Below are positions 8,226 to 55,531 of a stretch of 64,000 nt of DNA, in pieces (position 1 is the stretch's first letter; each line of letters begins with the position of its first letter). The notes under the pieces were generated by a model that saw nothing but the letters and a program-made list of their open reading frames with translations, was not told the origin of the DNA and did no database searches. This stretch comes from Actinomycetota bacterium (lineage in GTDB: Bacteria > Actinomycetota > Thermoleophilia > Gaiellales > Gaiellaceae): positions 201,676-265,675 of the forward strand of contig PKYN01000009.1 of NCBI GenBank assembly GCA_003132665.1, written 5' to 3'. The position numbers and the translations under genes were made by a program.

Positions 8226-8382
8226 TGCAACCTCTCAATCAGTTCATTCTGGGCACGGTGGAAAAGCTACAGAGGTAAATACCGAAATCGCCCCGAGCCT
8301 GCGTCGGTTGGGGGACTTAGGAACCGTCGGTAGTTACTACTAAACGCCTATCCCGCGACCGCGCATTTTACCGGGACGAGCT

Positions 8383-8553
8383 CTTAGAGCTCGTTTCAAA
8401 TGAAGCACTCCACCGCCCGGCCGCGCTCGGCGCCGCGCCGCGTTGTCCTCGGTCGCGCCCGTAGCCTCCGGCTACGAACGCGACACTGCGTCCTAGCATC
8501 GCATCCACCGATCGCATCCAGTCGGCAGGTCGTCAATTGAAACGAGCTCTAAG
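8383..8553. repeat. Intergenic element A: 17-bp perfect terminal inverted repeat with internal hairpin; related to 31286-31360
   Basis: CTTAGAGCTCGTTTCAA (8383-8399) / TTGAAACGAGCTCTAAG (8537-8553); central hairpin 8452-8484; core shared with element B. Confidence 0.75.
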
Positions 8554-8992
8554 CGCTGTCGCGCTCGATGCTGTAGACGGTCGCCTCGCGCCCGTTCAAG
8601 CTCTCTTCCATGCGCGCCAGCCGCTCGTCCACGCCGCGCCAGCCCCCGGCGATGAGATCGACGAGCAGGCCGAGATCCTCGACCCGGGCGAGGTGCTCGG
8701 CCTCGATCTCCTGCTCGAGCTCGCCCAGGCGGCGGATGAGCTGGTTGGTGAGGCCGCGCAGCTCGGCGAGCTCGCGGGCGACCGGAAGTGCCTCGGCGCG
8801 AAGTCCTTCGCGGACGGCCAGCCCGATCTCCTCGGGGAGCATCGTCTCGAGCTCGGCGCCCATCTGCGTCAGCGCCTCCATCTGCGCCCGCGCCCGCTCG
8901 AATGCCGCCCGCGTCTGGGACGGATCGACGGCGCTTCCGCTCGCCTGTTCGAGTCGCTCACGGGCTCGTGCCAGCACCTCTTCCATGAACAA
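8549..8992 (-). CDS. Predicted coiled-coil protein of unknown function
   Basis: 147 aa, helical heptad-rich sequence; codon structure of real ORF between fba and queA. Confidence 0.6.
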   Translation of the reverse strand: MFMEEVLARARERLEQASGSAVDPSQTRAAFERARAQMEALTQMGAELETMLPEEIGLAVREGLRAEALPVARELAELRGLTNQLIRRLGELEQEIEAEHLARVEDLGLLVDLIAGGWRGVDERLARMEESLNGREATVYSIERDSA

Positions 8993-14460: not shown

Positions 14461-16067
14461 GTCCCATCCTGGCAAGTACAACGCTCTCGAAGCGCTTCCC
14501 CCGGCCTCGCGTCGAGTCGATGCTGGCCGCCGCCACCGCGCTGGTGGGTGTACTCGCTCTCGTCTCGGCTCTCACGCCGGAGCTGGCTGACCGCGCCAAT
14601 CTCGTCAGGAGCGTCCTTCCGCCGGGCTTTCCCGAGCTGGCTCGGGTGCTCGCGCTCTCCTTCGGCCTGGCTCTGCTTCTGCTCTCGCGTTCGCTGGCGC
14701 GCGGGCGCCGGCGGGCCTGGACGCTGGTGCTCGCTGCCGTGATCGGAGTCGCCATCGCTCACCTGGCGAAGGGCCTCGACTTCGAGGAATCCCTCATCAG
14801 CCTGCTCTTGGTGGTCGGGCTTCTGCGCTACCGCTCCCATTTCGACGCCCCCGGTAACCCGGCCGCCCGCCGCCCGGTTGCCGGCACCTTGCTGGCCGTG
14901 ACGGCGATGGTCGGACTGGGCATCGTTTTCGGTACGCGGGGCATGCCCGATCGCGTCGGCGATTTGATCAGCGCGATCGCGGTGCTGCTTACGCTGCGCG
15001 CGCTCATACTCTGGCTCGGCCCCTTACCCGAGCACGTCAGCCAGTCGCTGGAAGAACGGCATCGGGCCAGAGAGCTGGTCGAGAGCTTCGGCTACGACAG
15101 CCTCGTGTTCTTCACTCTCCGGCGCGACAAGAGCTTCTTCTTCTCGCCCAGCGGCGACTCGTTTTTGGCCTATCGCCTGGTCGGCAGCTCGGCGCTGATC
15201 AGCGGCGACCCGGTGGGAAAGCAGAGCGAGTTCGCGGGCCTGGTGGCCGACTTCGTGGCGCGTGCTCGCGACAACGGCTGGCGTGTCGCCGTGGTCGGCG
15301 CCGATCGCGAGCGGCTCCGCCTCTACCGCGAGCAGGGGTTGGGACGGATCATCAAGATCGGCGACGAGGCGTTCATCCGCCCCGAGCTCTTCTCGACGGA
15401 GGGTCGCGCGATACGGAAGGTGCGCCAGTCGGCGCGGAAGGTCTCCGAGCGAGACGGCATCAGCTTTCGCATGGTGCGTGTGAAGGACGCCGACGCCGAG
15501 CTGCGGCTGAGGATCGAGCAGGTATCGGTCGCCTGGCTGGCCGGCCGGCGCGAGCGGGGCTTCTCGATGGCCATGGACGACCTGTTCACGCCCGGCAGCT
15601 TGCTGGCGCTGGCGTTCGACAGAGGCGACGAGCCGATTGCTTTCCTGCATCTGGTTCCCAGCCCTGCCGGCGGCGGCTACTCGCTCTCGACACAAAGGCG
15701 GCTGCCTGGCGGCCCGGGCGGCATCTCCGAGTTTCTGATCGTCGAGTCGCTGGCCTGGGCGCGGGAGGCCGGCGTGCCCGAGCTGTCGCTAAATTTCTGC
15801 GCCTTCCGCAGCCTGCTGAACATCGACGAGCAGGGGCGGCTGCGCTACCGATTGGCCCGCAGGACGCTGCTCGGTCTCGACTCGGTCTTCCAACTCGAGC
15901 GCCTGAGCTCGTTCAGCCACAAGTTCCACCCGGAATGGCGACCGCGATACGTCTGCCTGGAGCGCCTGAGCGACCTGCCTGCGATCGGGTTGGCCTACCT
16001 CCGCGCCGAGTCGCTGATCGCGGCTCCGCGCTCGCCCAGTCGCAAGCGATCGCCGGGATCGGACTAA
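14457..16067 (+). CDS. MprF/LysX-like membrane protein with C-terminal DUF2156 aminoacyltransferase domain
   Basis: N-terminal TMs then YDSLVFFTLRRDKSFFFSPSGDSFLAYRLVGSSALISGDPVG, SLNFCAFRSLL. Confidence 0.85.
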   Translation: MSPILASTTLSKRFPRPRVESMLAAATALVGVLALVSALTPELADRANLVRSVLPPGFPELARVLALSFGLALLLLSRSLARGRRRAWTLVLAAVIGVAIAHLAKGLDFEESLISLLLVVGLLRYRSHFDAPGNPAARRPVAGTLLAVTAMVGLGIVFGTRGMPDRVGDLISAIAVLLTLRALILWLGPLPEHVSQSLEERHRARELVESFGYDSLVFFTLRRDKSFFFSPSGDSFLAYRLVGSSALISGDPVGKQSEFAGLVADFVARARDNGWRVAVVGADRERLRLYREQGLGRIIKIGDEAFIRPELFSTEGRAIRKVRQSARKVSERDGISFRMVRVKDADAELRLRIEQVSVAWLAGRRERGFSMAMDDLFTPGSLLALAFDRGDEPIAFLHLVPSPAGGGYSLSTQRRLPGGPGGISEFLIVESLAWAREAGVPELSLNFCAFRSLLNIDEQGRLRYRLARRTLLGLDSVFQLERLSSFSHKFHPEWRPRYVCLERLSDLPAIGLAYLRAESLIAAPRSPSRKRSPGSD

Positions 16068-16173
16068 GACTTCATTCCGCCAGGCGTTCGGGCTTGACGA
16101 TCCAGGCCGCGTCTTCCGACCGAAAAGCTCTTTTTGGTCGCATGCGCGCGGCTCTTCCTGTCAAACTGCCAGC

Positions 16174-28951: not shown

Positions 28952-30033
28952 GCGTTTACCTAGCAGCGTCCGCGCTGGAGGATCTGTCTCTGCCGAGCCC
29001 GATGGTCAGGGTGATCCTGGCCAGCATCCTGGCGCTCGCGATCTCGATCTTCGCCGGGCCGCGCTTCATCGCCTTCCTGCGCAACCACGACGTTGGCCAG
29101 CACATACGCGAGGAGGGGCCGGCGGGACACGTCGTCAAGCAGGGAACGCCGGTGATGGGCGGCGTGCTCTTCCTGGTTGCCGCGGTCATCTCGTTTTTCG
29201 TCTTCAGCGAGTACACGACCCAAGCCTTGACCGTGCTCTTCGTCATGCTCACCTGCGCCGGCATCGGTTTCGTCGACGACCTGATGAAGCTGCGGCATCG
29301 GCGCTCGCTCGGGTTGGCCGGTCGCTGGAAGATGGTCTTCCTCGTTTTGATCACCGTCGGCGCCGGTTACCTGGCGCACCGAGCCGGTCAACCGACCTGG
29401 CTCGCCATTCCCTTCACCCACACGCGCCTGCAACTGGGCCTGCTCTGGTACGTGCTGCTCTTCTTCGTCATCGCGGGCGCGGCCAACGGCGTTAACCTGA
29501 CCGACGGTCTCGACGGACTGGCGGCGGGCACCGGCATCATCGCCACCTTCACCTTCCTCTCGATCGCGGTCATCGCCTACGTGCGCTCCTCGCCGAACCC
29601 CGGCTTACGCGAGCCGAGGCTCGTCGATCTGGCGATTCTGGCCGCCGCGCTGATCGGAGGACTGATCGGCTTCCTCTGGTACAACACCTTCCCGGCCGAC
29701 GTGTTCATGGGAGACACCGGCTCGATGGGGATCGGCGGTGCGCTGGCGGGCTTCGCGATCATGACCAAGACCGAGCTCCTGCTGCTTCTGGTCGCCGGGA
29801 TCTTCCTGATCGAAGCGCTCTCGGTGATGATCCAGGTCTTCAGCTTTCGCCTCTTCAAGCGCCGCGTCTTCTTGATGGCGCCGATCCACCATCACTTCGA
29901 GATGAAAGCCTGGTCGGAAACGAAGATCATGGTGCGCTTCTGGATTCTCTGCGGCATTCTCTGCGCCCTTGCCTTCGCTCTCTATTACCGTAGCTTCACC
30001 GTCTTCAACTTCCTCCGCCCGCTGCCCAAGTGA
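28948..30033 (+). CDS. mraY: Phospho-N-acetylmuramoyl-pentapeptide transferase
   Basis: GVNLTDGLDGLAAGTG, GDTGSMGIGGALAG, MAPIHHHFE; GTG start 28948 overlapping murF stop. Confidence 0.95.
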   Translation: MSVYLAASALEDLSLPSPMVRVILASILALAISIFAGPRFIAFLRNHDVGQHIREEGPAGHVVKQGTPVMGGVLFLVAAVISFFVFSEYTTQALTVLFVMLTCAGIGFVDDLMKLRHRRSLGLAGRWKMVFLVLITVGAGYLAHRAGQPTWLAIPFTHTRLQLGLLWYVLLFFVIAGAANGVNLTDGLDGLAAGTGIIATFTFLSIAVIAYVRSSPNPGLREPRLVDLAILAAALIGGLIGFLWYNTFPADVFMGDTGSMGIGGALAGFAIMTKTELLLLLVAGIFLIEALSVMIQVFSFRLFKRRVFLMAPIHHHFEMKAWSETKIMVRFWILCGILCALAFALYYRSFTVFNFLRPLPK

Positions 30034-31295
30034 GCGAGCTGCCTGATCGCGTGCTCGTGCTGGGCCTGGCCCGATCGGGGCGGGCGGCGGCGCTGGCCCT
30101 GGCGCGGCGCGGCGTGACCGTCGTAGCGGTCGATCGCTCGACCGAGCTGGATGTGAGCGAGCTGGCCGGAGCGGGCATCGAGCTGAGGCTCGGCGTCGAG
30201 AGCGAGCGCTTGCTCGAAGGCGCGGGGCTGCTCGTGAAGAGTCCCGGCGTGCCGGCCGAAGCGGCGCTGGTAAGGGCGGCGCAGAAGCGAAGGACTCCGG
30301 TTTGGAGTGAGGTTGAGCTTGCTTCACGCCTCTTTCCAAACCCTTTGGTCGGCGTCACCGGCACCAACGGCAAGACGACGACGACCGAGCTTCTGGGGGC
30401 GATCTTCCGCGCAGCCGGTCGCACGGTGGAGGTGGCCGGCAATGTCGGCCGGGCGATCTGCGACCTCGACGGTGAGCTCGACCCCGACAGCTGGATCGTC
30501 TGCGAGCTCTCCAGCTTTCAGCTCGAGGACATCGAGCGCCTGCGCCTGCGCATCGCCGTGCTGCTCAACCTCGAGCCCGACCACCTCGATCGCCACGGCT
30601 CACTCGAGGCCTATCGCGACGCCAAGCTGCGCATCTTCGAGAACCAGCTCGAAGACGACGTGGCCGTGCTGCCGCGCGGATTCGGCGAGGTGCCGGGGAG
30701 CGGCCGCCGAGTCGAGTTCGAAGCGCACGATCCCCTGCCGGCCGAGCCGCTGATACCAGGCGAGCACAATCGCGAGAACGCCGCCGCCGCAACCCAGGCG
30801 GCGCGGGCGGCCGGAATCGCCGAGGATGCGATCGCCGAGGCGCTTCGCACCTTCCCCGGCGTGCCGCACCGGCTCGAGCCCGTGGCCGAGCTCGGCGGAG
30901 TCCGCTACGTGAACGACTCCAAGGCCACCAACACCGCTGCCGCGCGCAAGGCGATCGCCGCCTACTCGGGGCCGCTGCATATCATCCTCGGCGGGCGCGG
31001 CAAGGGGGAGGCGTTCGACGGCCTGGCCGCGGAGCTGAGCGCCCACGAGGCCCGCGCCTATCTGGTCGGCGAGACGGCAAAGGAGATAGCGGGCGCGCTG
31101 GAGCGAGCCGGTGTCGCCTTCGAGCATTACGGGACGCTCGAGCAGGCCGTTGCAACGGCCGCGGGCAATGCGAAGCCGGGCGAGATCGTGTTGCTCGCGC
31201 CCGCCTGCGCCAGTTTCGACCAGTTCGAGAACTTCGAGCAGCGCGGCGACGCCTTCCGCTCGTGCGTGGCGAAGCTGGCCTCGCAGAACCCCTAA
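30030..31295 (+). CDS. murD: UDP-MurNAc-L-alanine--D-glutamate ligase
   Basis: GVTGTNGKTTTTELL, CELSSFQLEDI, NDSKATNTAAARKAI. Confidence 0.95.
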   Translation: MSELPDRVLVLGLARSGRAAALALARRGVTVVAVDRSTELDVSELAGAGIELRLGVESERLLEGAGLLVKSPGVPAEAALVRAAQKRRTPVWSEVELASRLFPNPLVGVTGTNGKTTTTELLGAIFRAAGRTVEVAGNVGRAICDLDGELDPDSWIVCELSSFQLEDIERLRLRIAVLLNLEPDHLDRHGSLEAYRDAKLRIFENQLEDDVAVLPRGFGEVPGSGRRVEFEAHDPLPAEPLIPGEHNRENAAAATQAARAAGIAEDAIAEALRTFPGVPHRLEPVAELGGVRYVNDSKATNTAAARKAIAAYSGPLHIILGGRGKGEAFDGLAAELSAHEARAYLVGETAKEIAGALERAGVAFEHYGTLEQAVATAAGNAKPGEIVLLAPACASFDQFENFEQRGDAFRSCVAKLASQNP

Positions 31296-31360
31296 CGGAA
31301 TGAAGACCCACCGACTGGGTGCGATCGGGCGGTGGAGTGCTTCAGTTTCGTTAGGGGTTC
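31286..31360. repeat. Intergenic element B: 12-bp perfect terminal inverted repeat, core related to element A
   Basis: GAACCCCTAACG (31286-31297) / CGTTAGGGGTTC (31349-31360); core GACCCACCGACTGGGTGCGATCGGGCGGTGGAGTGCTTCA. Confidence 0.75.
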
Positions 31361-31435
31361 ATAAAGCCTGATTCTCGAGCCCTATCTGAAGCGCCGAGGG
31401 TAGGAAGCGCGCTCGCGCGGTCGAACCGTCCTAGC

Positions 31436-48522: not shown

Positions 48523-51186
48523 TTATTCGTACTGGAGAGCTTCGAGCACGTTCAGCCGTGCCGCACGCCTGGCGGGGAGGATCGCCGCAACGATGCCGAT
48601 GAGCACAGCCGCGATTCCGCAGAGGATGAGCTGCGACACCGGCAGGTAGAAGCTCACGTAAGGCATGCGATGAACGAGGAGCACGCCGAAGATCAGGCCG
48701 AGCCCGATTCCGAGCGCGCCGCCGATCAGGGCCGTGATCACGGCCTCGTGTCGGATCATCCGTCGCGTCTGGCGCTGAGTGATGCCGATCGCTCGCAGCA
48801 TGCCGATCTCCCGTGTCCGCTCGTAAATGGTCAGAACCAGCATCACGATGATTCCGACGACGCTGATGAAGATCGAGAACACGAGCAGCACGTAGAGCAC
48901 CATCAGGATCGGGTTGAGCTGCGCGATCTGACTGTCGACGAACTGCTTCCGGGTCTGTGCCTGGGCGTTCGGGAAGGCTGCCAGCGCCTTGTCGAGAGCC
49001 TTCGAGTTGGCCGCGTTTTCACCGCCCGACATCTTCAGAAGCGTGTACATGTTCGACGGATCCTGGAAGTTGGCGTCGAACGTCCTGGCCGAGAAGGTCA
49101 CGTCGCCGAAGGCGGAGCCTCCCGTCGGCGGCTTGAAGATTCCCTTCACTCTCAGGTCGAGCGTCTTTCCGGACGGGGTGACGACCGTGAGCGGCGAGTT
49201 GAGCCGCAGGTGATGCTTGTCGGCGAAGCGCTCGGGAACGATCGCTCCGTTCGAGCCCAGCGAATCCAGGGTTTTCTCGGAGCCAATCTTCCAGTCGAGT
49301 CGAAAGACCCGGCTTGGCTGACCGTCGACGGCGTTGACCATGTCGCTCTTGCCGTACACGAGACCGAAGCCGGCTCGCACGCTGCTGATCGCCTCTACGC
49401 CCGGAACTCGGGCGACGGCCTTGGCGGCGGCGACAGGGACTCCCGTGACCGAGGTCTGGCTTACGGGCGTGACCGCGTAGTTTCCGGTGAAGATCGCATC
49501 GACGGCGCCCTTGAACGAGCCGATGATGCTCGCGGCGAGGACGGCGACGAGCGTAACCAGCGCCAACCCGATCATCAAGGCGGCGGAAGAGGAGGCTGTT
49601 CTCTCCGGACTGCGGCCGGAGTTCTCGAGCGCCAGACGGTTCATGGCCCGGTCCGGCATGACACCGGGGAATTCGGGTCCTCTGCGCAGCGCTTTTCTGA
49701 TCAACCAGAAAAGGAACGAAAACGGCCAGACGACGATCGACAGGAGCGCTACCGCCACCATCCCGACGGGATGTACTGCCGTCGCGATCGGCTTGATCAC
49801 ACGGGCAGATACAAGCGCCACTCCGATGAAGATCAAAACCGCGCCGCCGCCCAGGGTCAACAGGATCTGGCTGGTCGTCAGGCCGTTTGCGAACAGTCCG
49901 AGCAGGAGCAGGGCGAAGCCCAGAACCGTCAGGCCGAGTGAGCCGGCGGTGCGGAAGCGGTGGAAGCGTGACGGCGGAAGCACGGCGCCCTCCCTGACCG
50001 CGGCGATCGGCGGCACGCGAGTCGCGCGCAGCGCCGGCCTGATGCTGGCAAACAGCGTCACCAGTATGCCGACCAGCAGGGCCACGTAGATGGTGCGCGG
50101 CTCTACCACGAAGGCGTTCTTCGGCAGCTCGAGTCCGAGGCTCTTGAACAGGCTCATGAGACCCATCGCCAATCCGAAGCCGAGCAGGAGGCCCGTGATC
50201 GAGGCGAGCACCCCGACGATCAGCGCTTCGATCAGGATCGAGCCCAGAACCTGGACGCGCGAGCTCCCGAGCGTTCTCAGCGTGGCGAACTCGCGCGTGC
50301 GCTGGGCGACGGTTATCGAGAGTGTGTTGATGATCACAAAGCTGCCGACGAAGAGCGCAATGCCGGCGAAGGCGAGCAGGAAGTACTGGATTGCCGAGAT
50401 CTGCTTCGAGGTGTCCGCCGTGGCCTTCGAAGCTTCCTGGGTGCCCGTGCGTAAGGTGACGCTCTTCGGCAGTTCCGAGCGGAGCTGTTTGACGAGCCGT
50501 GCGGGGGAGACGCCGGGCTTGGCGACCGCCGCGATGTAGTCGAGCTCCCCCGAGCGATCGAACAGGCGCTGAGCGGTCGTCAGATCGAAGCCCGCGAGCG
50601 TGGCGCCCATCATCCCGTTCGACTGGCCGAAGCGGAAGATTCCGGACAGCCGCATCTTGCGTACCGGTCCACTGGTGAGGATGCCGACTCGCTCGCCAAC
50701 CGTGTAACCGCCTTTCTTGGCGGTGCCCTGGTCGATCACCACCTCGCCGGCTTTGGGCCAAGCGCCCGAGATGAGGGTCACGGTGCTCAGCTCGGGAACC
50801 GAGTTGTCGATGCTGACGCCGATCGTCGGGGCGCCTCCGTTGACGATCACTTTGCCGTTCTTGCCGACGACCGAGCAGGTGAGGGTCTGCACACCGCCGA
50901 CGGCGGATTTCACGTCGCTGGCCGATCGAACGCTCCCGAGCACTGACTGCGGAAAGCTCGGAGCCAGGTTCATGCCGCTCATGTTGTCCTTCACGATCGA
51001 GCGACCGGAGACATAGGCGTCCGTGCCCTTGTAGATCTGCTGGTAGAGGCTGTCGAAGGAGTGGTTGATCGTGTCGGTGAGGACGTAGGTGCCGCTCACC
51101 ATGGCGACTCCGAGCACGATCGCTATCGCGGTCAGGCTGGAGCGCAGCTTGCGGGTCAGAAGCCCGCGCAAAGTGATCCGGATCAT
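48523..51186 (-). CDS. FtsX/MacB-like ABC transporter permease (cassette 1)
   Basis: MIRITLRGLLTRKLRSSLTAIAIVLGVAMVSGTYVLTDTINHSF, two FtsX-like domains; start ATG 51186. Confidence 0.9.
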   Translation of the reverse strand: MIRITLRGLLTRKLRSSLTAIAIVLGVAMVSGTYVLTDTINHSFDSLYQQIYKGTDAYVSGRSIVKDNMSGMNLAPSFPQSVLGSVRSASDVKSAVGGVQTLTCSVVGKNGKVIVNGGAPTIGVSIDNSVPELSTVTLISGAWPKAGEVVIDQGTAKKGGYTVGERVGILTSGPVRKMRLSGIFRFGQSNGMMGATLAGFDLTTAQRLFDRSGELDYIAAVAKPGVSPARLVKQLRSELPKSVTLRTGTQEASKATADTSKQISAIQYFLLAFAGIALFVGSFVIINTLSITVAQRTREFATLRTLGSSRVQVLGSILIEALIVGVLASITGLLLGFGLAMGLMSLFKSLGLELPKNAFVVEPRTIYVALLVGILVTLFASIRPALRATRVPPIAAVREGAVLPPSRFHRFRTAGSLGLTVLGFALLLLGLFANGLTTSQILLTLGGGAVLIFIGVALVSARVIKPIATAVHPVGMVAVALLSIVVWPFSFLFWLIRKALRRGPEFPGVMPDRAMNRLALENSGRSPERTASSSAALMIGLALVTLVAVLAASIIGSFKGAVDAIFTGNYAVTPVSQTSVTGVPVAAAKAVARVPGVEAISSVRAGFGLVYGKSDMVNAVDGQPSRVFRLDWKIGSEKTLDSLGSNGAIVPERFADKHHLRLNSPLTVVTPSGKTLDLRVKGIFKPPTGGSAFGDVTFSARTFDANFQDPSNMYTLLKMSGGENAANSKALDKALAAFPNAQAQTRKQFVDSQIAQLNPILMVLYVLLVFSIFISVVGIIVMLVLTIYERTREIGMLRAIGITQRQTRRMIRHEAVITALIGGALGIGLGLIFGVLLVHRMPYVSFYLPVSQLILCGIAAVLIGIVAAILPARRAARLNVLEALQYE

Positions 51187-51190
51187 CGGA

Positions 51191-51967
51191 CTATCTCCTC
51201 CCGATCTCCTGGATCGCCTTCTGGATCTCCTCGGGAGTCGTCTCCGGGAGTTCCTTGACGATCGCGCCGTCGCCGAGGAAGAGGACGCGGTCGGCGATCG
51301 TGGCCACACGTGCGTCGTGGGTGACCATGACGATCGTTTGCCCGAGCGTCTCGACCGAGTCGTGCAGCAGCTCGAGGATCTCGCCGCCGGTCTTGGAGTC
51401 GAGGTTGCCGGTGGGCTCGTCGGCAAAGAGCACGGTGGGACGCGAAATCAGCGCCCGGGCGACCGCTACGCGCTGCTGCTGACCGCCAGAGAGCTGAGCC
51501 GGGCGATGAGTCAGGCGCTTGGAGATGTGCACCTTGCCGACGACCTCGTCGAACCAGTCGGGGTCGACCTTCACGCCGGCGATCTCGAGCGGCAGCACGA
51601 TGTTCTCGCGCGCCGTCAGCATCGGCAACAGGTTGAAGAACTGGAAGATGAAGCCGACGTGCTTGCGGCGAAGCTTGGTCAGGGCCGTGTCGTCGAGCGT
51701 GGTTATCTCGGTACCGTCGATCTCGACCGAGCCGGAGGTGGGCTTGTCGAGCCCGGCGAGGATGTGCATGAGCGTTGACTTACCGGAGCCCGAGGGGCCC
51801 ATGACCGCCGTAAGGTGACCGGTCGGAACATCGATGGACACGTCGCAGAGCGCGTTCACCGCGGTGTCGCCCTCGCCGTAGCAGCGGCAGAGATCGGTCG
51901 CGTGCACGGCGACGCCGTCGCGCGTCACGCTCCCGGTCGCAAGCTTCTTCGAAACGTCAATGCTCAT
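51191..51967 (-). CDS. MacB/LolD-like ABC ATP-binding protein (cassette 1)
   Basis: MGPSGSGKSTLMHILAGLD, LSGGQQQRVAVARAL, LFADEPTGNLDSKTG. Confidence 0.95.
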   Translation of the reverse strand: MSIDVSKKLATGSVTRDGVAVHATDLCRCYGEGDTAVNALCDVSIDVPTGHLTAVMGPSGSGKSTLMHILAGLDKPTSGSVEIDGTEITTLDDTALTKLRRKHVGFIFQFFNLLPMLTARENIVLPLEIAGVKVDPDWFDEVVGKVHISKRLTHRPAQLSGGQQQRVAVARALISRPTVLFADEPTGNLDSKTGGEILELLHDSVETLGQTIVMVTHDARVATIADRVLFLGDGAIVKELPETTPEEIQKAIQEIGRR

Positions 51968-52163: not shown

Positions 52164-54740
52164 CTATTCATATTGCAGCGCCTCCAGAACGTTCAGCCGC
52201 GAGGCGCGGCGGGCGGGCAGGATGGCGGCCAGCATTCCGGCCACGACCGTCGCCAGCGTGAAGGCGACGAGCGAGCTGACCGGCAACGAGAAGACGATGT
52301 CGTAGCGGCTGAGCGCGGTCGTGACCATCGCCGCGAGGAAGATGCCCACGGGAATTCCGGTCGCGGCTCCGATCAGCGAGATGGTGATGCTCTCGTGCCG
52401 GATCATCCTGCGCGCCTGGCGACGGGTCATGCCGATTGCCCGCAGCATTCCCAGCTCGCGCGTGCGCTCGAACACGGCCAGAGCCAACGTGTTGACGATG
52501 CCGAAGACGCTCACCACGACCGACAATCCGAGCAACACGTAGAACATCGCCAGCAGCGTGTTCATGCCCGAGCTCTGGGTGTCGATCGCCTTCTTCTCGG
52601 TCAGCACCTGGACGCTCGGAAAGACCGCGAGCGCCGAGCGCAACCTCGCGGCGACCGCCTCCGACTCGCCGCCCGTCGTGCGCAGATAGGTGAGCAGCGT
52701 CGTCTTCGGGTTGCGGTAGACGGCGTCGAAGGCCTTCTCCGAGACCGTGACCTCGCCGAGCAGCTCGATCAGCTCCGGCTGCTTGTTCACGGCGATGACG
52801 CGTAGGCGAAGCTTGCGTCCGTCAGGCATCTGCACCGGGAGAGGGCTGCCGATTCCGAGCCCGTGCTTGTGAGCGAAGGAGTCGGTGACGATCGCTCCAT
52901 CTCCTCCGAGCTTGGCGAGCGAGGCGTTCGACCCCTCCTGCCAGTCGAACTTGTAGACGGAAGAGGCGGTCTTCGGATCGAAGCCGGTGATCGAGATCTG
53001 CTTGCCGAAAGCGATCACGGTGTCGGTGCGAAGCGCGACGGCCTTCTCGACCCCGGGCACGCGTGCCAGCCTGCCGGCAACGGCGTTCGAGTAGGTGCTG
53101 TAGCCGTCGTTTGCCATCACGATGTAGTCGGCCGAAGCCTGCTTTCTGATCGCGACTCCGATCGAGCGAACGAAGCCCTGCGCCAGCACCGAGACGAAGG
53201 TGACCAGAGCCAGCCCGATCATCAGTGCGGCCGCTGTCGAAGCGGTGCGAGCCGGTACGCGCATGGCGTTCTCTCGCGCCAGCTTGCCCGCCGTACCACC
53301 AAAGGTCGATCCCGGCGCGCCGACGATGCGAGCCAGTGGTCGTGCGAAGTAGGCCGAAAGCAGCGCCACCGCGATAAAGAAGAGCGCGCAGCCTGCGGCG
53401 ATTGTCAGCAACCTCTGACTGGACTGGTCGAAAGAACCGAACAGACCGACGCCGAGGACGGCCAGCGAGGTTGCGAGCAGAAGCCCGGAGGCGATCTGGC
53501 GCAGGCGCGAGGAACGCCTCCGCGCCAGCACCGCTCCTTCACGCACCGCCGCGATCGGCGGCACACGGGTCGCGCGCAGTGCCGGCCCGAGCGAGGCAAG
53601 CAGAGTCACGACGACGCCGGTGACGATGCTGATGACGAAGGTGCGCGGCGCATACACCGTCGCCGTCCTTGGCACGTCGATGCCGATCGCGCCCATCAGG
53701 GCGGAGAGTCCCGCGGCGAGCAGGATCCCGACGCCGATCCCGATCACTGAGGCCAGTGCGCCGATGGTCAGGCCCTCGGTCAGCACACCGCCGAGAATCT
53801 GCCGCCTGCTGGCGCCGATCGTGCGCAGGGTCGCCATCTCGCGCGTGCGCTGCGCGACCGTGATCGAGAGGGTGTTGAAGATGACGAAGGCGCCGACGAA
53901 AAGAGCGATGCCGGCGAAGGTCAGAAGCGCATAGCGGATGATCTTGGCGAAGGAGCTCCATTGCGACTGGTCTTCCTTGATCTGCTCGTCTACGGTGAGG
54001 GCCTTGGCGTTCGGCGGCAGGAGCGGCTTGATCTGTGCCACGAGCCGCGCCGGGCTGACGCCGTCCTTGGCGATGACGTCGATCTCGCTCAGCCTTCCGC
54101 CGAGGCCGAACAGTCGCTGCGCGGTGGGCAGGTCGAAGACGGCCATCGTCGCGCCACCCAGAGAGTTGCTCGAGCCCCATTGGAGCAACCCGACGATGCG
54201 GAAGCTCTGCAGCGGACCGGAGCCCTCGACCCGGATCGTGTCTCCAATCGAGACGTGCGCCTTCTTGGCGCTGGCGACGTCGATCGCAACCTCGCCCGGG
54301 CCCTTGGCCCAGCGCCCGTCGATGATCTTGAAGGCGCCATCCCGGCCGATCGACGCGGGGTCGCGGCCGAAGCCGAGCGCCGGCGGACCGGCGGGGCCGA
54401 CCGGATCGCCCTTGGCGTCGATCATCCGGGCCGACTCGGTCTCGACGACGCCGTAGGCGGACGCGGCGCCCGGAAGAGAGCTGACACGCGCGAGCAGCGA
54501 GGCCGGGACGGTCGGCTGGTCGGAGGTCGCGCCGTTCTTGACGAGTGACTTGCCCGAGACGACGGCAGAGGTGTCGGCGCGAGCCGAGGCCATGAGCGTG
54601 TTGAACGACTTGTTGATCGTGTCGGTGAGCACGTAGGTGCCGGCAACCATCGAGATGCCGAGCACGACTGCGAACGCGGTCAGCGAGGTGCGCAGCTTGC
54701 GCGACCAGAGCCCGCGGAGTGCGATACGGAGCATCGTCAC
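52164..54740 (-). CDS. FtsX/MacB-like ABC transporter permease (cassette 2)
   Basis: LRIALRGLWSRKLRTSLTAFAVVLGISMVAGTYVLTDTINKSF, C-terminus LNVLEALQYE as in cassette 1. Confidence 0.9.
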   Translation of the reverse strand: MTMLRIALRGLWSRKLRTSLTAFAVVLGISMVAGTYVLTDTINKSFNTLMASARADTSAVVSGKSLVKNGATSDQPTVPASLLARVSSLPGAASAYGVVETESARMIDAKGDPVGPAGPPALGFGRDPASIGRDGAFKIIDGRWAKGPGEVAIDVASAKKAHVSIGDTIRVEGSGPLQSFRIVGLLQWGSSNSLGGATMAVFDLPTAQRLFGLGGRLSEIDVIAKDGVSPARLVAQIKPLLPPNAKALTVDEQIKEDQSQWSSFAKIIRYALLTFAGIALFVGAFVIFNTLSITVAQRTREMATLRTIGASRRQILGGVLTEGLTIGALASVIGIGVGILLAAGLSALMGAIGIDVPRTATVYAPRTFVISIVTGVVVTLLASLGPALRATRVPPIAAVREGAVLARRRSSRLRQIASGLLLATSLAVLGVGLFGSFDQSSQRLLTIAAGCALFFIAVALLSAYFARPLARIVGAPGSTFGGTAGKLARENAMRVPARTASTAAALMIGLALVTFVSVLAQGFVRSIGVAIRKQASADYIVMANDGYSTYSNAVAGRLARVPGVEKAVALRTDTVIAFGKQISITGFDPKTASSVYKFDWQEGSNASLAKLGGDGAIVTDSFAHKHGLGIGSPLPVQMPDGRKLRLRVIAVNKQPELIELLGEVTVSEKAFDAVYRNPKTTLLTYLRTTGGESEAVAARLRSALAVFPSVQVLTEKKAIDTQSSGMNTLLAMFYVLLGLSVVVSVFGIVNTLALAVFERTRELGMLRAIGMTRRQARRMIRHESITISLIGAATGIPVGIFLAAMVTTALSRYDIVFSLPVSSLVAFTLATVVAGMLAAILPARRASRLNVLEALQYE

Positions 54741-55531
54741 TCCTTTCCGAGCTCGCTGATCGCGAGATGCACTTCTTCGGGGGTCGTGTCCGTGAGCTGC
54801 TTGACGATCTGGCCGTCGGCGAGGAAGAGAACGCGGTCGGCCACGGTTGCCGCGCGGGCGTCGTGGGTGACCATCACGATCGTCTGGTCGAAGGCATCGA
54901 CCGAGTGCCGAAGCAGCGCGAGGATGTCGCCGCCGGTCATGGAGTCGAGATTGCCGGTCGGCTCGTCGGCGAACAGCACGGTGGGGCGAGTGATGAGCGA
55001 GCGTGCGATCGCCACTCGTTGCTGCTGCCCGCCGGACATCTCCGCCGGCCGGTGCGACAGCCTCTCCGCCAAGCCGACGCTCCCCACGAGCTGCTCGAGC
55101 CAGGCGGCTTCGACCTTCTCACCGGCGATCTCGAGCGGCAGCACGATGTTCTCGCGCGCCGTCAGCATCGGTAACAGGTTGAAGAACTGGAAGATGAAGC
55201 CGACGTGCTCGCGCCGCAGCTTGGTCAGCGGCGTGTCGTCGAGTGTCGTGATCTCGGTGCCGTCGATCTCGACCGTGCCCGAGGTCGGCCGGTCGAGCCC
55301 GGCGAGGATGTGCATGAGCGTGGACTTGCCCGAGCCCGAGGGCCCCATGATCGCGGTCAGGCGGCCGGCGGGTACGTCCAGCGAGACGTCTCGCAGGGCG
55401 TCGACCGAAGTCTCTCCCCGTCCGAAGCGGCGAGTGAGATTGCGTGCCTGCACCACCGACCTCGGCACAAGCTCCGAGTCGCGCCTGCTCGAATATGACA
55501 CTCGCGGCTCGGATTCGATCTGTGTCTGCAT
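54737..55531 (-). CDS. MacB/LolD-like ABC ATP-binding protein (cassette 2)
   Basis: MGPSGSGKSTLMHILAGLDRPTSG, MSGGQQQRVAIARSL, LFADEPTGNLDSMTG. Confidence 0.95.
   Translation of the reverse strand: MQTQIESEPRVSYSSRRDSELVPRSVVQARNLTRRFGRGETSVDALRDVSLDVPAGRLTAIMGPSGSGKSTLMHILAGLDRPTSGTVEIDGTEITTLDDTPLTKLRREHVGFIFQFFNLLPMLTARENIVLPLEIAGEKVEAAWLEQLVGSVGLAERLSHRPAEMSGGQQQRVAIARSLITRPTVLFADEPTGNLDSMTGGDILALLRHSVDAFDQTIVMVTHDARAATVADRVLFLADGQIVKQLTDTTPEEVHLAISELGKE

Follow-up and report, generated by a model that had tools for sequence, protein, structure and literature searches.

A new family of palindromic MITEs with variable terminal inverted repeats in Thermoleophilia, including a copy at the murD-ftsW junction

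The repeats termed elements A and B, which lie in a 64,000-nt stretch of the genome G000 (the window), are members of a new MITE family in Thermoleophilia, dispersed among soil actinobacteria of this group, and the kind of element is one already known. They are best explained as MITEs belonging to an IS1031-like IS5 element, with subfamilies of the terminal inverted repeat (TIR) and with template switching that corrects one arm to the other, a reading that is given a probability of roughly 0.86. Repeats that hold the same core and different inverted ends are explained in this way without a new element class, through variable TIRs, pairing by the transposase and template-switch correction.

Element B, element A and the end of murD

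The features of the two copies and of the neighbouring gene ends are as follows.

31286..31360, + strand: element B, a 75-bp, internally deleted MITE copy at the murD-ftsW junction, recognized by its sequence and by a profile match to its left part; its predicted hairpin is about -51 kcal/mol and its deletion junction is unique
31286..31297, + strand: left TIR of B, GAACCCCTAACG, which fits the family TIR consensus GARCNC-N4-CR and is missing from the empty site of the congener G003
31293..31295, + strand: murD stop TAA in current use, evidently supplied by the element; the ORF spans 30030-31295, and the murD end differs in G003
31298..31348, + strand: core of B, in which the centre of full-length copies is missing after CGATCGG, by comparison with A and other copies
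31349..31360, + strand: right TIR of B, CGTTAGGGGTTC, the perfect complement of the left arm
31369..31371, + strand: remnant of the TGA that formerly ended murD, lying right of the insert, from alignment with G003 (GCCTGATTC)
8387..8549, - strand: element A, a full-length copy of B's MITE, with arms GAGCTCGTTTCA at 8538-8549 and 8387-8398
8549..8551, - strand: stop TAG of the upstream gene, which abuts the left end of A

The letters of B are as the initial annotation had described them: the 12-nt arms are perfect, the murD TAA stands inside the left arm, and the two core blocks equal A on the opposite strand (8508-8525 and 8401-8418) with 0 mismatches except at the position written as R, the match count of the GGGCGGTGGAGTGCTTCA block to A being reached by no shuffle. 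B had also been likened to A with its centre deleted, and it is indeed A minus the centre, of which about 90 nt are gone. Loss of the centre is a familiar event in long palindromes, which are prone to such accidents, and the event order that we infer for B is a full copy that afterwards lost its centre. The exact deletion junction was found nowhere else in the 21 genomes searched and the short copies L299, L196, L225 and L205 have junctions that differ from it; as the junction is private to B, the possibility that B represents a mobile short subfamily was rejected.

The history of the junction can be read from G003, in which murD is 94% identical to that of G000 and free of the element, ending in ..LAARA-stop and running directly into the common spacer. 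The arm sequence of B (CCCCTAACG) was not found at this murD end, and the TGA that ends the gene in G003 persists in G000 to the right of B. With the end empty in G003 and the TGA kept in G000, the last codons and the stop of G000 murD are seen to have come with the element, and the present TAA is, on this comparison, one supplied by it. The proposed correspondence of each arm to the end of a local gene is reduced to an overlap, since the empty murD site does not contain the arm. The element is seen rewriting the C-terminus and stop of murD within a cell-wall gene cluster.

Copies, fold and strand bias

The genome-wide search with the core motif that had been proposed as a check returned many copies in the own genome, in agreement with the earlier view of a mobile or REP/MITE-like element. 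A BLAST-type search with A gave 23 matches in this genome and, for every one of five congeners (Thermoleophilia MAGs), at least 20-22, with weaker matches beyond the genus in many genera of the same family; a pattern scan of GTDB genomes returned only actinobacterial MAGs, titled Actinomycetota or Thermoleophilia. Using a profile built from 62 copies, 9 near-full copies and several fragments were found in 1.26 Mb of the own genome (1.2 Mb in stretches, 1.26 Mb including the window). Full copies are about 165 bp and are predicted to form one hairpin with a folding energy of roughly -85 to -120 kcal/mol; the RNAalifold consensus holds 55 pairs, 26 of them changed on both sides. The element is almost wholly hairpin, and the family has no transposase coding sequence. 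It thus shows the short length without transposase, the TIRs, the many scattered copies and the empty sites in relatives that are expected of MITEs, while target-site duplication is seen only as a 3-bp excess and is not exact at A or at B. Window positions 15921-16089, flagged by a scan for the end pattern, were rejected as a chance match on sequence inspection.

Among bacterial MITEs, QMITE2 of Coxiella and Chunjie of Geobacter (PMC10969869) are likewise short and intergenic, with no ORF, with TIRs and direct repeats, with an RNA fold of about -100 kcal/mol and with truncated copies. The present family differs in being GC-rich and not AT-rich, in being palindromic nearly throughout and in having a TIR sequence that varies between copies.

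A fold of this kind could also belong to an RNA that acts in cis and is selected at gene ends, as a terminator, a 3'-end stabiliser or an attenuator, and the very high stability, the compensatory changes, the gene-end position and an excess of G-T on one strand all agree with such a role; in Watson-Crick-major pairs of the top strand, G-T variants number 179 against 35 A-C (33 pairs against 7). However, this excess is confined to variants present in more than 3 copies, and rare variants, presumably post-insertion, show none in either orientation (39 vs 35 in all). The copies are moreover in mixed orientation to their flanking genes (24 antisense-antisense, 17 sense-sense), and their presence varies between close relatives. 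No terminator-like T run, intrinsic terminator or promoter-like site was found around B, and Rfam gave no match in the window. A selected RNA element is highly unlikely on this evidence.

The spreading lineages, and not the resident copies, seem to have been selected for the top-strand fold, a bias that is not explained by plain IS5 cut-and-paste. The copies are related by descent, and G-U pairs were permitted when the structure was predicted from these very data, so that the bias is a lead and not a result; it is unlikely that a particular strand must fold, as single-stranded DNA or RNA, for the family to spread, and the bias, if true, would raise the question of how foldback MITEs spread. 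Three conserved purine-purine mismatches, spaced exactly 5 nt apart in the stem, were also observed on this strand, at alignment columns 33/143 (A-G, 54/62 copies), 38/138 (G-G, 49/62) and 43/133 (A-G, 60/62).

The long hairpins, the intergenic position and the top-strand bias would also suit REP/BIME-like palindromes that a Y1 transposase (RAYT/IS200-type) moves in single-stranded form. The REPs that carry GTAG or CGTC tags, with their RAYTs (PMC3733652), are similarly palindromic, intergenic, present in many copies and located downstream of genes; however, they are 20-40 bp with the tag at one end, and the elements described here are about 165 bp, with GARC ends and with TIRs and 3-bp duplication, neither of which is a Y1 feature. 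A cognate TnpA-REP or other transposase had been suggested as a partner to look for. PF01797 had no match in the copy-rich genomes G000, G003 and G005, which are incomplete MAGs, and the Y1 loci of relatives are without clear element ends; a candidate for the transposase part of the suggestion is an IS5-family IS with matching TIRs in G006, a genome of the same family. Movement by a Y1 transposase is very improbable.

Terminal arms and a candidate partner IS

In all 81 copies the arms, 12 nt or longer, begin at one set distance from the core and follow the consensus GARCNC-N4-CR; thought at first to be unrelated between copies, they share GARCNC..C at a fixed position. GAACCCCTAACG of B and GAGCTCGTTTCA of A are two variants of this family arm, and further variants recur in several copies at unrelated places, e.g. 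GAGCGCGGAGCG, GAACTCATTTCG, GAGCGCCAAGCG and GAAGCTCTAACA. Within a copy the two arms pair at 10.91 of 12 positions (81 copies), compared with 8.55 (sd 0.135, maximum 9.19) when the right arms were re-dealt in 5,000 trials with G-T scored as a pair; re-dealing preserves column composition and not relatedness, and arm boundaries were partly set by complementarity, so the effect size is somewhat flattered. To judge from these alignments, the arms are the element's own variable terminal repeats and not copies of neighbouring genes. As one transposase must bind both ends, TIR subfamilies are expected to change in step.

A candidate for this transposase was obtained by scanning PF01609 loci of same-family genomes for element ends. 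Two IS copies in G006 (897 and 902 bp) carry the TIRs GAACTCGAATCAGAATGA / GAACTCGAATCGAAATGAAG and are bordered by TTA at either end, and a third, with TIRs GAACTGATTTCTGAATGAAG and GAACTCGTTTCACATTGA, is bordered likewise by TAA. The transposase, read in two frames that meet at an A5G run, belongs to the IS5 family by NF033580 (254.7 bits against a cut-off of 110, with the two frames joined by hand at the A-run for the query) and by PF13340 with PF01609. The IS1031 group is described as having 3-bp repeats at TNA, an IR beginning GAACC and a -1 frameshift (PMC12016507). Members of this IS5 group such as ISLrh (PMC12016507) resemble the present elements in the TIR start GAAC/GAGC and the 3-bp TNA duplication, and resemble the partner IS in a length of about 900 bp and in a transposase whose two frames are joined by a shift at an A-run; unlike them, A and B have no transposase, and the partner IS comes from genomes of the same family and is not seen intact in the genus. 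The putative designation IS1031-like refers only to the TIR, TNA, 3 bp and frameshift, the family model itself indicating IS5.

Arms at least 70% identical to the G006 TIRs are found on the left of 36 and on the right of 44 of the 81 copies, vs 14 and 11 of 20,093 genomic GARC sites, and the arms of L121 match these TIRs at 17/18 and 18/20. The ends thus match the TIRs of an autonomous element, and the 3-bp TNA duplication is exact at the three IS copies and enriched at MITE flanks; the MITEs were most likely moved by an IS5-family transposase of this type, which would bind the arms as TIRs at both ends. The one relative seen within the genus is truncated; it lies in G002, and its surviving end is TTA followed directly by GAACCTGAATCAAAATGA; no intact cognate IS was seen among the genomes of the genus, which are incomplete MAGs. 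TIR detection on decayed IS copies gave nothing usable, and the MITE interior shows no established match to that of the IS. The genus is predicted to contain an intact IS whose TIRs are of the GAGCTCGTTTC or CCTAACG type.

Template switching that is able to rewrite one arm from the other has been described (PMC8794818, PMC8604942). The copy L020 of G000 has GAAGCACTCC in place of the (G)AAGACCC of its G003 orthologue L111 and of almost every other copy; GAAGCACTCC is the exact complement of the right arm of L020, the right arm of L111 carries the complement of its own left arm, and L014 holds a tract of the rewritten kind seen in L020. Templated repair does occur, as these copies indicate, but arm copies arm and not flank; the earlier idea that integration or templated repair duplicates flanking DNA in inverted orientation is retained for the repair, between arms, and abandoned for the host DNA. 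The rewriting of one arm as the complement of the other (L020 vs L111, and L014) is like quasipalindrome correction by template switching (PMC8794818, PMC8604942), which is known as a mutation mechanism and here acts on the ends of a transposon family. Differences between copies would then stem from existing TIR subfamilies, and the match within a copy would arise because both ends serve one transposase and because template switching in replication corrects one arm to the other.

A single TIR common to the copies was the result that the initial annotation had set against host-derived ends, and a shared consensus matching IS5-family TIRs was found: that insertion or repair copied the flanking target inverted, the arms being taken from the local gene end, is hardly credible, for although arms differ between copies, match within a copy and have counterparts in letters resembling an arm at certain empty sites (A in G003, L118, L085), the common consensus stands at a fixed distance, the same variants occur in unrelated places, the B arm is missing from the G003 murD end and matching TIRs are present in an IS.

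Target sites and gene borders

For the MITE family of an IS1031-like element, cut-and-paste insertion would duplicate 3 bp with a preference for TNA, which suits the stops TAA and TGA. Of the 81 copies, 14 have the same 3 bp just beyond the left and the right arm, compared with 2.9 expected, these 14 including L019 and L136, which are one insertion in two species; the other 67 are without exact duplication. The duplicated triplets are CAT, CAA, TTA, TAA, TCA, CAC and CTA, and TNA stands at 17 left and 19 right flanks of the 81 copies vs a genome frequency of 2.5%. Several element ends abut the stop or start codons of a neighbouring gene, as placed by a codon-usage estimate and not by curated annotation; at L012 the duplicated CAC is a GTG start read on the other strand, in a gene that by eye we take to be kdpD. 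TNA sites in a compact GC-rich genome should lie chiefly at stops, and a gene whose stop is duplicated over 3 bp remains intact; we infer that TNA targets and gene-border insertion explain the repeated overlap with stop codons. Insertions would survive mainly at gene borders, leaving copies on or beside stop and start codons, some of which, such as B, would supply a new stop. An IS1031-type TNA target is in this way linked to landing on stop codons in a GC-rich genome.

For about a dozen copies present in a congener, the corresponding empty site of G000 was read. L097, L102, L115 and L131 have no arm sequence when empty, and at L083/L090 (filled in G003 and G004) G000 retains a left-arm scar such as a deletion between AGTTCG repeats would leave. 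Arm-like letters are present at the empty sites of L118, L085 and A, and these could be scars or self-like targets. The 'empty' A site of G003 (L342, compared with window 8380-8555) reads TAGAGCTCGTCCCGG, and its letters could likewise be a deletion scar or a self-like target; in G000, TAGAGCTCGT and TAAGAGCTCGT are direct repeats on either side of A. Insertion into pre-existing terminator palindromes was rejected, as several empty sites have no palindrome.

Some further sites were noted. In other species, the left flanks of L077, L078, L097 and L131 fall at one point, GATGCCA, of another interspersed repeat, GTGGATGCCA...GGCGCACTGGTAGTGCG, which in the own genome is insert-free at L309 near 14025 and at L293 near 9933 and is present in part within L009. 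L073 (G003) and L113 (G004) have orthologous flanks (88%) and hold clearly different family members at nearly the same point, as if by two insertions or an exchange. L105 in G003 resembles a composite of two family members, where G004 (L106) has a single one and G000 none. Elsewhere in the window, the long direct repeats at positions 49951-51500 and 53499-55046, which are 72-81% alike and set about 3,548 bp apart, indicate a duplicated gene block.
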